This document shows positions 47,796 to 51,332 of a stretch of 54,243 nucleotides of DNA, piece after piece. A model generated the notes under the pieces. It was not told the origin of the DNA, ran no database searches, and saw only the letters and a program-made list of their open reading frames with translations. The translations under genes and the position numbers were made by a program. The stretch's first letter is position 1, and each line of letters opens with the position of its first letter. This DNA comes from an uncultured Erythrobacter sp. (GTDB lineage Bacteria; Pseudomonadota; Alphaproteobacteria; Sphingomonadales; Sphingomonadaceae): NCBI GenBank assembly GCA_938015255.1, contig CALLQC010000008.1, positions 1 to 54,243 on the forward strand. The letters run 5' to 3'.

Positions 47796-49345
47796 GCTAC
47801 CGCCAGAAAATCGCTGATCGCGACGGTGCGTTTTCGGGAACCAAGCCGGGACAGGCTATTCTAGATATCGGCTCAAATACGGTCCGCCTGGTGCTTTACG
47901 GCGGTTCGATGCGTGCTCCGGGCGTGCTGCTTAATGAGAAGGTGACTGCGCAGCTTGGCCGAGCAATCGCGAGCGACGGCGTTCTGGCGCAGGAGGCGAT
48001 CGATCTTGCAATGCTAGGCTTGCGCCGCTTCGCGCTATTGCTTGAAGATCTTGGCATCGACGACGTAGAAACCGTAGCCACAGCGGCGGTTCGTGATGCC
48101 AGCAATGGTGGTGAATTCGTCGCCGCTCTCAAGGAGCTGGGTTTTAATCCACGTGTGATTTCCGGTGAGGAGGAAGCGTGTCTCAGCGCAAGCGGTGTCG
48201 CCGGCGCATTTCCCGGTGCCTGCGGTGTCGTGGCCGATCTTGGCGGCGGCAGTCTGGAGCTTGTCGATATCGCCGATGGCAAGCCCGGCAAGGCCGTTTC
48301 TCTTCCGCTCGGCACGCTGCGACTGCCCGAGTTCAGCGAAAGCGCCGATGGCCCTGCTGGCATGCGCAAGTCGCTTGTGAAAGCACTTAAGAAAGGCGCA
48401 AAACAGTTTGATGGTGAGCTGGGTAAGGGGCAGCCGCTGTACCTTGTCGGCGGAACGTGGCGGACAATGGCCGTTTTCGCGATGCAGGAACAGGGGCACC
48501 CGCTGTCGGATCCACACGGGTTCACCCTGTCTGCCAAAGAGGCGGCAAAGCTGGCCAAAAATTTGGCATCACAATCCGTAGATGACCTGAAAGCGCGCGA
48601 ACGTATTTCTTCCATGCGCGCGGAGAAGCTGCCTGATGCTGCGGTGCTGCTTCAGGCGCTTTTGGCCCGGCTTAAACCCAGCTTTCTCGTCTTTTCATCA
48701 TGGGGATTGCGCGAAGGGCTGCTTTATGACCGCTTGCCAAGCCACGCCAAATCGCAGGATCCCCTGCTGGCCGGCATTGGCGAGTTCGCTAAACAGCGCG
48801 GGGCGCCGCCAACGCTTGCCGCGCGCATTGCCGGTTGGACGGTCGATGCAGCTCCTGCACAAAAGCATGGCAGCGAAAGGCTGCGTCTCGCGGCGACCAT
48901 GCTGTCGCTCGCATCGATGCAGATTGAGCCCAACATCCGTCACCCGCAATCCGCAGATTGGGCGCTCTACAAACGCTGGATTGCAGTTTCGGATCAGGAC
49001 CGTGCAATGCTGGCCGCTGCAATTGCAGCCAATGGCAATCAGCTTTCCTTGCCTGAAACCGTTACCGAGCTTGCCAGTCCTGAAGCGCTGGAAGAGGCCA
49101 TTTGCTGGGGGTTGGCTGTGCGCCTTGCGCGTCGGCTCGGCGCAAATTCGCGCAGATCACTGCGGGTTAGCCGATTGATAGTCCGCGACAAGACCCTGGT
49201 TCTCAGGCTGGAAAAAAGCCACGAGGCCCTTTTCGGCGTTCCTACGGAAAAGGATATCATTCTGCTTGCTGACAGACTTGGTATGGATTGGGCAGTGGAA
49301 ATTGTGCCTGAGGGTGAACTGATGGAGAATAATCCGCAGGATTAA
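47792..49345 (+). CDS. ppx: Ppx/GppA family exopolyphosphatase
   Basis: AILDIGSNTVRLVLYGG...VVADLGGGSLELVDI; ATGA overlap with ppk. Confidence 0.94.
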   Translation: MSYRQKIADRDGAFSGTKPGQAILDIGSNTVRLVLYGGSMRAPGVLLNEKVTAQLGRAIASDGVLAQEAIDLAMLGLRRFALLLEDLGIDDVETVATAAVRDASNGGEFVAALKELGFNPRVISGEEEACLSASGVAGAFPGACGVVADLGGGSLELVDIADGKPGKAVSLPLGTLRLPEFSESADGPAGMRKSLVKALKKGAKQFDGELGKGQPLYLVGGTWRTMAVFAMQEQGHPLSDPHGFTLSAKEAAKLAKNLASQSVDDLKARERISSMRAEKLPDAAVLLQALLARLKPSFLVFSSWGLREGLLYDRLPSHAKSQDPLLAGIGEFAKQRGAPPTLAARIAGWTVDAAPAQKHGSERLRLAATMLSLASMQIEPNIRHPQSADWALYKRWIAVSDQDRAMLAAAIAANGNQLSLPETVTELASPEALEEAICWGLAVRLARRLGANSRRSLRVSRLIVRDKTLVLRLEKSHEALFGVPTEKDIILLADRLGMDWAVEIVPEGELMENNPQD

Positions 49346-50247
49346 CCCTGCGGCTGGCTCGCGCTTCCCTTCGAAGAGAATGGCGAGAAATCCGTTTCCG
49401 TATCGAACAGATCGACCCCTTCGGCTTTCTTCAGCTTGCCAACGACCAGATATGTGACCGGCGTAAGCGCCGCCTCCCAAAGGACTTTCAAGAGCCAGTT
49501 CGTGATCATTACGGTGATGACCGCTTCGGTTGACCAGATGCCGTAAAATGCGATCGGGTAGAAAATCAAACTATCAACGCCTTGACCTACTACCGTCGAT
49601 CCAATCGTTCGGCTCCAAAGCGCCTTACCCTTCGTCCATACTTTCATCTTCGCCATCACATAGGAATTGACGAACTCGCCTGCCCAAAAGGCGACGATTG
49701 AGGCGATAACAATGCGCCAGGTGCTTCCGAAAACGGATTCGTATGTTTGCTGACAGATGGAGCCGGGCACCGCGTCCGGATTTCCTCTCAAGTCGAGCGC
49801 GCCAGAGCCCGCGCATTCCCATCCGTCAAAGGCTGGCAGGCTGACGACGATGTAACTCATGAAGGCGAGAAATATCATCGCGGCAAAACCGGTCCAGATA
49901 ACGCGCCGCGCCCGTGCGAAACCGTAAATCTCGGTGAGAATGTCGCCAATCACGTAGCCGAGGGGGAAGAACAGGATACCTGCGCCGTATATGAAAACGC
50001 CGTCCGCTGCGGGCCACCAGCCATCAGGCCACCAACTGACTTCGACAAAGGTTAGCTTCGCTGCGCCAATAATGTTGGACAGCAACAGGATCGCAACGAA
50101 CGCCGCCATGACGAAATCGTAATACCGGAATGTCATCGGTGCATGGCTGGTCGCACGGATCCCATCATCGGGGTTGTCGTCAAACGCTGCTGCTGTATCG
50201 GGCTTATCCATATTTCGCGGCATTAGCGTGATTCCCAAGGGGGACAA
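49342..50247 (-). CDS. Queuosine precursor transporter (YhhQ family)
   Basis: FFPLGYVIGDILTEIYGFARARRVIWTGF...FWAGEFVNSYVMAKMKVWTKGKALWSRTIGSTVVGQGVDSLIFYPIAFYG. Start uncertain. Confidence 0.93.
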   Translation of the reverse strand: MSPLGITLMPRNMDKPDTAAAFDDNPDDGIRATSHAPMTFRYYDFVMAAFVAILLLSNIIGAAKLTFVEVSWWPDGWWPAADGVFIYGAGILFFPLGYVIGDILTEIYGFARARRVIWTGFAAMIFLAFMSYIVVSLPAFDGWECAGSGALDLRGNPDAVPGSICQQTYESVFGSTWRIVIASIVAFWAGEFVNSYVMAKMKVWTKGKALWSRTIGSTVVGQGVDSLIFYPIAFYGIWSTEAVITVMITNWLLKVLWEAALTPVTYLVVGKLKKAEGVDLFDTETDFSPFSSKGSASQPQG

Positions 50248-50286: not shown

Positions 50287-50363
50287 GCGCCCGTAGCTCA
50301 TCTGGATAGAGCGCGAGACTTCTAATCTTGAGGCAGCAGGTTCGAGTCCTGCCGGGCGCGCCA
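50287..50363 (+). tRNA. tRNA-Arg (anticodon TCT), CCA encoded
   Basis: Cloverleaf: acceptor GCGCCCG/CGGGCGC, anticodon arm CGAGA-CTTCTAA-TCTTG, T-arm GCAGG-TTCGAGT-CCTGC, discriminator G + CCA. Confidence 0.95.
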
Positions 50364-50494
50364 ATTCACCCTTCGGGTGAGTTGGCGAGGCCGCATGGAG
50401 GATCGAACCCGTTCGGAGTCGAGGCCCAATTGCCAAATTGGGCCGAGCCGAACGAGCCCCTTGGGGCGAGGACAGTCCTGCCGGGCGCGCCAAT
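50345..50494 (+). repeat. 21-bp direct repeat of the tRNA-Arg 3' end flanking a 108-bp hairpin-rich segment
   Basis: AGTCCTGCCGGGCGCGCCAAT at 50345-50365 and 50474-50494. Confidence 0.9.
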
Positions 50495-50498
50495 CTCT

Positions 50499-51332
50499 TT
50501 ATCCTCGTGCGACAGTTTCGAGCAGCTCCGAGGTGACCGGATAGCCGGCGTCTTCGAGAATAGTGAGCATAGGTTTGCCTGAACTGTCATCAATTTTGGG
50601 AATGATGGTTTTGACTGGGATTGCTTCCGCCTGAGACCGCGCTTCTTCAAAGCTTGAGAACAGCGCCAGTCGCTCAAGGTTGCGGCGGGTCGGGAAGATC
50701 AGCTTGATCTCGCCGCGTTCTGCCATTTCGAGAGCACCTTGTGCGCTAGTCCAGAAAAGCCGGGTGTTCTCTGACTGGTCGACTTCGATCTTTACCGCCC
50801 CGGTTCCTAGGTCTGCGAGGTAGAATCTGGTGTCGTAAACACGGCTGATGTTTTCGTTCTTGGGAAACCAGCGCGCGAACGGAACGATCTGGTCAAAATC
50901 GAGCGACCAGCCAAAAGCGTCGAGAACCGGTGCCAGCGCCCCACTTTGTTCGAGCATGACGCGCGCCGCGGCTGCCGTATCTGAGGTGATATCTCCAGAA
51001 AGGCCCAGGGCCAGCCCGGTTTCTTCGAGAGTTTCGCGAATGGCGGCGATCTGATGGGCGCACTCATCAATCGGCATGGACCCGCTGGTCCTTTCTGCCA
51101 GTTCGAAGTCCGCCGGATCGACACGGCCACCGGGAAACACTGCCATCCCTCCCGCAAAGGCCATGTTGCGCGATCGCACCGTCATCAGGATCTCGGGCGG
51201 TCCGCCATCGGCAGCCTTTCGAAAAATAATGATTGTTGCAGCAGGAATGCCCTCAGGCCCGGAATCGTTTGGCATGGATTGAATGTTGGCTTGTCCGCAT
51301 GATCTTGCCAAGGGAGCAGTGCTAACCATCAC
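50499..51332 (-). CDS. NUDIX hydrolase family protein
   Basis: MAFAGGMAVFPGGRVDPADF...AAIRETLEETGLALG; start may be internal (about 51275). Confidence 0.88.
   Translation of the reverse strand: MMVSTAPLARSCGQANIQSMPNDSGPEGIPAATIIIFRKAADGGPPEILMTVRSRNMAFAGGMAVFPGGRVDPADFELAERTSGSMPIDECAHQIAAIRETLEETGLALGLSGDITSDTAAAARVMLEQSGALAPVLDAFGWSLDFDQIVPFARWFPKNENISRVYDTRFYLADLGTGAVKIEVDQSENTRLFWTSAQGALEMAERGEIKLIFPTRRNLERLALFSSFEEARSQAEAIPVKTIIPKIDDSSGKPMLTILEDAGYPVTSELLETVARG

Follow-up and report, generated by a model that had tools for sequence, protein, structure and literature searches.

A 129-nt repeat unit (positions 50364-50492) located behind a tRNA-Arg(UCU) gene of an uncultured Erythrobacter was identified from its layout as a tRNA-linked repeat (TLR) of the alphaproteobacterial kind. 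We consider it probable, at roughly 60%, that this unit is a structured trailer RNA which is co-transcribed with the tRNA, freed by tRNA-type 3' processing and lost via recombination between repeats. The window analysed spans 54,243 nucleotides, and a genome search found the unit only once in the genome to which it belongs. As expected of a TLR, the unit lies directly downstream of a stable RNA gene, beginning at the base directly after the CCA of tRNA-Arg(UCU). It ends in a copy of that gene's own 3' tail (19 of 19 nucleotides plus AT, where TLRs carry 18-19 bp) and it occurs as one unit at a kind of locus that holds one to five. The coordinates of its parts are given in Table 1.

Table 1. 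Positions of the tRNA gene, the repeat unit and its structural parts in the window
Feature	Positions	Strand	Basis or remark
tRNA-Arg(UCU), host gene, CCA encoded	50287-50363	+	ARAGORN; Rfam tRNA 66.9 bits
Direct repeat copy 1, AGTCCTGCCGGGCGCGCCAAT (tRNA 3' end plus AT)	50345-50365	+	direct-repeat search
Trailer hairpin GCCAATTCACCC-TTC-GGGTGAGTTGGC, including TCACCC-TTC-GGGTGA (50366-50380)	50360-50386	+	fold
Whole repeat unit, 129 nt, first base past first CCA to end of second CCA	50364-50492	+	present or absent precisely between relatives
Core matched by covariance model R2	50395-50480	+	58.8 bits (R1 70.4 bits, window among the R1 seeds)
Antisense T-arm	50398-50409	+	covariation of P0 and H1; match to own tRNA
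P0 5' strand AGGAT, pairs with GTCCT (50475-50479)	50399-50403	+	covariation
H1 5' strand CGAAC	50404-50408	+	covariation
H1 3' strand GTTCG, T-loop nt 54-57 equivalent of the sense T-arm copy	50411-50415	+	
H2, first T-loop-insert hairpin, GGCCCAATT-GCCA-AATTGGGCC (50423-50444)	50418-50449	+	
H3, second insert hairpin, GCCCC-TT-GGGGC, followed by CGAGGACA	50456-50467	+	
Direct repeat copy 2, AGTCCTGCCGGGCGCGCCAAT; tRNA nt 59-76 equivalent, CCA at 50490-50492	50474-50494	+	direct-repeat search

The two copies of AGTCCTGCCGGGCGCGCCAAT are 100% identical at a spacing of 129 bp and form the sole direct repeat in the 801 bp searched, in agreement with the preliminary description, which had reported that the final 19 nt of this tRNA, together with AT, recur 129 bp downstream. 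Every hairpin that it named in the 108 bp between the repeats was located in the sequence. The T-loop-like complement that it pointed out (GGATCGAACCC at 50400-50410) is real as well and belongs to the antisense copy of the tRNA T-arm. No integrase was found within the 129 bp of the unit, as had been stated, and an ORF check of 50364-50492 gave no credible ORF. The neighbouring genes are a divergent VUT-family (putative vitamin uptake) transporter upstream of the tRNA (49342-50247, minus strand) and a convergent NUDIX hydrolase downstream of the unit (50499-51332, minus strand).

A 141-nt stretch was observed to fold better than all 200 of its dinucleotide shuffles (z = -4.81), and the 129-nt unit alone gave z = -3.66. 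The H2 hairpin of the window is an unusually long version with an imperfect lower stem. The stem CGTTCGG...CCGAACG proposed earlier does form in the minimum-energy fold of this one sequence, but the conserved partner of GTTCG is the upstream CGAAC, with which it forms helix H1; across the relatives, 95.1% of the cells in H1 are paired. That GTTCG pairs with the downstream CGAAC rather than in H1 in the lowest-energy fold of the window counts against the trailer RNA reading. A GGA/UCC mini-hairpin placed before the second tail by RNAalifold was lost in wider sampling and is replaced by the P0 pairing. Rfam matches to miRNA and plastid families on the minus strand were far below the cut-off and consisted mostly of the tRNA read backwards.

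Our comparison of the relatives shows the same order of parts along the tRNA strand, where a trailer hairpin (often terminator-like) is followed by an antisense T-arm, by the 5' part of a sense T-arm ending in GTTCG, by a pair of hairpins that interrupt the T-loop between nt 57 and 59, and finally by tRNA nt 59-76 with CCA. The antisense arm is able to pair with the second tail to form helix P0 and with GTTCG to form helix H1, which closes a multi-helix structure. A symmetric GNA/GNA internal loop was observed in H2 in 92 of 101 copies. The host-specific T-arm inverted repeat, the GNA/GNA hairpin and the tail of the own tRNA are the constant parts, while the terminator and extra hairpins vary. 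Among 58 distinct sequences, 91.8% of the cells were paired and two-sided changes numbered 109 against 31.9 in shuffles; the alignment behind these pair counts was built with a model that holds most of this structure, with P0 lying outside that model. None of 500 shuffles reached any of the measures, and the signal collapsed when the partner was slid by 1-3 columns.

The ends of the unit follow the tRNA behind which it is found. Over 77 relatives, the second tail scored 32.3 against its own tRNA and 17.1 against other tRNAs, its own being the better match in 76 of them (0 of 2000 permutations), and the tail was exact over 18 nt in 49. The antisense T-arm carries a host signal in the same manner, for example GACAGGA-TCGAACCTG behind tRNA-Pro and GGT-GGA--CGAACCCAC behind tRNA-Ser(CGA). 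This signal is weaker than that of the tail, with a score of 15.1 for the own tRNA and 13.3 for others and the own tRNA better in 57 of 77 (0 of 2000 permutations). An earlier test on 53 copies had pointed in the same direction.

From the precedent of the E. coli TLRs (PMC8144298), we infer how such a unit would be transcribed and processed. The unit would be co-transcribed from the tRNA-Arg gene by read-through, and a structured RNA of about 129 nt would be released when tRNA-type 3' processing cuts at the second CCA as well as behind the first. The antisense arm may fold the second tRNA tail away and so prevent it from competing with the real tail or from pairing with the tRNA body. The earlier suggestion of a tRNA 3'-processing module agrees with the E. 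coli TLRs as they are known. In the window, the trailer hairpin has no T-run and occupies the place of the intrinsic terminator of other copies; no terminator-like site was found behind tRNA-Arg(UCU), so read-through should be efficient here. In most relatives an apparent terminator lies between the tRNA and the unit and read-through may therefore be low, a point against the trailer RNA reading.

Related units were found to be scattered over the surrounding taxa. When 114 genus genomes were searched at the DNA level, about a dozen showed a related core behind tRNA-Arg(UCU), and in one genome (G046) such a core follows tRNA-Pro(GGG), its unit ending with the Pro tail TCCTGTCTTCCCGACCA. With R1, a covariance model made from alignment A1, the element was found in 30 of the 114 genus genomes and in 19 of 201 genomes of the family. 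With R2, a second model of 62 sequences that are alphaproteobacterial only, it was found in 51 of 301 genomes of the order (about one in six) and in 9 of 289 genomes of the class, about six of which look credible by their position behind a tRNA. Up to seven copies were observed per genome. The host tRNAs belong to nine amino acids, namely Arg (UCU, ACG, CCG and CCU), Pro, Ser, Tyr, Lys, Gln, Leu, Met and Gly. Where a tRNA lies upstream on the same strand, 78 of 83 copies sit 17-77 nt behind it and the remaining five are mostly second units or lie behind displaced tails. Tandem units were observed at several loci (L063, L124 and L082/L086), and a gammaproteobacterial locus (L142) has three units. 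Weak R2 matches without a nearby tRNA (L108, L109, L111, L139-L141, L143, L145 and L146) were rejected as chance, and three R1 matches (L058, L075 and L083) were also taken as chance.

The arrangement is thus not one that is conserved vertically without copies at other tRNAs or empty sites, the outcome that the preliminary description had set against its own proposal of a tRNA-targeting mini-element; both were found. Among the 83 tRNA-Arg(UCU) loci compared, an intact or nearly intact unit lies beside the tRNA in 12 and a displaced one in two more (G015 and G026), while four loci have apparent remnants (G008, G013 and G049, and G080, which is doubtful). For loci with a recognisable flank, to which the comparison was limited, what follows the second CCA where a unit is present matches what follows the only CCA where the relative is empty (G052 with G012, score 94; G057 with G077, score 102). 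The sequence past the first CCA of the filled loci was at background against the empty relatives. The unit is therefore precisely present or absent between relatives, an observation which fits insertion and deletion between the 17-19-bp repeats equally. According to the trailer RNA reading, recombination or slippage between the repeated tRNA tails would expand units or remove them, and removal would leave a clean tRNA gene.

These clean empty sites, together with the duplicated tRNA 3' end, the scattered distribution, the occurrence at tRNAs for nine amino acids and the up to seven copies in one genome, could also be produced by a non-autonomous mobile mini-element whose target would be the T-loop or the 3' end of a tRNA (att-like core TCCTG...CCA) and whose movement would depend on a trans-acting recombinase or some other enzyme recognising the two hairpins. 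Full tRNA-Arg(CCU) copies whose T-loop holds this insert at an identical position speak for it as well. We nevertheless regard this as unlikely, since the unit has no integrase and is only 129 bp long, its remnants show decay, and both T-arms, antisense and sense, match the particular host tRNA, as would not be the case for a fixed element on the move. In addition, the cores follow the tRNA locus and not the genome. The nearest-neighbour core was at the same tRNA in 42 of 81 cases against 14.7 expected, and core similarity was 0.618 for the same tRNA in different genomes compared with 0.580 for different tRNAs in one genome. As the cores resemble those at the same tRNA locus elsewhere more than those at other loci in their genome, frequent hopping is disfavoured. 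Of the proposed mini-element, the occurrence at many other tRNAs with their own tails and with clean empty sites was borne out. The att-type recombination suggested at the same time received no supporting sign, as the 129 bp lack an integrase and a credible ORF and the layout is that of known TLR and RtT anatomy. An att scar or mini-integrative element was accordingly rejected on the missing integrase, the host-specific T-arms and the locus-tracking cores. The attL/attR sites of tRNA-integrating islands likewise have a duplicated tRNA 3' end flanking the inserted unit and clean empty sites, but the unit in the window differs from such islands in having no integrase, in its length of only 129 bp and in a T-arm inverted repeat that is specific to each host tRNA.

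On a tree of the VUT transporter, a single-gene tree in which G057 falls in an unexpected clade, the state of the unit changed at least 15 times, which is about as often as with shuffled labels. Divergence of the element and of the neighbouring gene was at most weakly correlated (rho 0.17, p = 0.08). The transporter tree of the genus itself has two deep clades with G057 oddly placed, and this suggests transfer or replacement at the VUT locus. We read these results as inheritance that is for the most part tied to the locus, with units often lost, expanded locally in tandem and only rarely established at a new tRNA, though gains may have occurred as well. Loss is seen directly in the decay remnants, and the patchy presence means that the unit is dispensable. 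The scattered presence could reflect either an RNA without function or mobility. The resulting natural pairs of loci with and without the unit are many and can be used to ask whether the unit affects its tRNA.

The patchy presence, the remnants and the tandem arrays would also be expected if the units were neutral by-products of tandem duplication of tRNA tails with no selected structure. This is highly improbable, as conserved hairpins with strong covariation and a similar core in alpha- and gammaproteobacteria require either selection or templated copying of the structure. A bolder reading, which we hold to be quite doubtful, is that TLRs are widespread structure-borne selfish or domesticated elements of proteobacteria. 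Such elements would copy a two-hairpin insert into the T-loops of duplicated tRNA tails (occasionally of whole tRNA copies, as with tRNA-Arg(CCU)). At every tRNA newly occupied they would rebuild antisense and sense T-arms that match the host, through an RNA-templated or single-strand-templated mechanism of a kind not yet described.

The full tRNA-Arg(CCU) copies mentioned above were observed in six genomes (G054, G450, G409, G474, G206 and G285; loci L048, L098, L102, L118, L129 and L135), where they lie directly upstream of the intact gene. At two of these loci (L102 and L118) a second insert is located in the anticodon arm of the copy. Judged from their sequence these copies are pseudogenes, because the 3' strand of the acceptor stem is broken. 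Insertion exactly in the T-loop and the existence of full tRNA copies interrupted there might indicate an intron-like or alternative-tail device, in which the mature tRNA would carry the second tail in place of the first once the insert had been removed from the T-loop. The chance of this is very slight. The insert is only about 60-70 nt long and has no match to an Rfam intron family (group I or group II) at E <= 5; the acceptor stems of the full copies interrupted in this way are broken; and the first tail is complete, so that splicing isn't needed. Splicing of a T-loop intron was rejected on these grounds.

In one genome (G015:C10:112148-128250; L033 and L177), about 16 kb lie between an intact tRNA-Arg(UCU) and a truncated 3' piece of that tRNA with its TLR, and this stretch is apparently an island integrated in the tRNA with the TLR displaced. 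Similar displaced 3' halves of tRNA-Arg(CCG) were found at L043 and L053.

TLRs as such are already known, having been described in E. coli since 1978, and an early claim of a role in the stringent response was withdrawn (PMC8144298). For E. coli, 22 TLRs at ten tRNA or rRNA loci are given (Egan and Landy 1978; Rudd 1999, as cited in PMC8144298). Like the units described here, they lie directly behind a tRNA on its strand, have an 18-19-bp 3' end identical to that of the upstream gene with hairpins in between, and occur singly or in tandem; the tyrT examples have the inverted T-arm and the T-loop insert. The alphaproteobacterial units differ in being at other tRNAs (mainly Arg), in their length (129 bp here against 178 bp) and in having fewer internal hairpins, and those behind tRNA-Arg often have a sense copy without the 5' strand of the T-stem. 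The 178-bp RtT/RttR repeats of tyrT-tyrV have the same order of parts, with an antisense T-arm, GGTTCG, a hairpin whose internal loop contains GA, then more hairpins, GAGTA or GGACA and finally the tRNA tail. For RtT, a covarying helix that frames a tandem GA has been reported (PMC8250186), and RtT RNAs were detected on northern blots in Actinobacillus (PMC4986893).

R2 was observed to match all four E. coli tyrT RtT units (E of 9e-5 to 3e-4 in 7.5 kb, 20.6-22.5 bits) and nothing else in the locus, with part of the score on these units coming from their tRNA-derived ends. It also matches gammaproteobacterial units behind tRNA-Lys and tRNA-Ser which are called RtT by Rfam. Deep common descent of the alphaproteobacterial units and E. 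coli RtT is thus likely rather than certain. In the reverse direction, the Rfam RtT model (RF00391, gathering cut-off of 45 bits) gave no match in the window up to E = 5 and none at eight other alphaproteobacterial loci (E <= 1). The alphaproteobacterial copies tested thus differ from RtT in that the Rfam covariance model fails to match them, and this branch is outside the reach of the current model. The diverged branch supplies, at tRNAs of nine amino acids, comparative data that were seemingly missing before. The branch itself, the host-specific T-arm inverted repeat and the tRNA copies interrupted in the T-loop appear undescribed in the literature searched, which was covered in part. Beside TLRs, the Rfam family sX4 (RF02223, a Xanthomonas sRNA) was observed to cover tRNA-Ser plus its trailer, above the cut-off at one locus (L144, 1588-1796, minus strand) and below it at another (L105, 1570-1727, minus strand). 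What sX4 describes may be the trailer of tRNA-Ser and no sRNA in its own right.

The 5S-linked E. coli TLRs (RrA, RrB and RrF) are transcribed via read-through of the first terminator, and their long form extends 3 nt beyond the repeated tail (PMC8144298). They share with the alphaproteobacterial units the repeated tail of the upstream stable RNA, and their dual terminators resemble many of the alphaproteobacterial copies. They differ in being linked to 5S rRNA and not to a tRNA, in that R2 did not find the rrnB unit (rrB), and in binding CsrA, a protein missing from this genus. Since these RNAs bind Hfq and CsrA in vitro (PMC8144298), a regulatory sponge for CsrA and Hfq, as proposed for E. 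coli, was also considered. Several GGA motifs are present in the alphaproteobacterial units and Hfq was found in 57 of 61 genomes of the genus. The GGA motifs, however, are mostly located in the H2 internal loop rather than in hairpin loops, the window genome and all 52 good genus genomes tested lack CsrA (one match was found, in a genome that is 74% complete), and Hfq was not found in the window's own assembly, perhaps owing to its completeness of 94%. We consider a sponge very unlikely here and rejected CsrA as its target. As CsrA is missing from the genus, a role as CsrA sponge cannot be general, which argues against CsrA as a general partner of TLRs. The Hfq of the genus (for example G066:C29:19571-19996) consists of a pair of Hfq domains that are separated by about 50 nt within a single open frame of roughly 200 or more amino acids, and appears from its sequence to be a tandem-domain Hfq.
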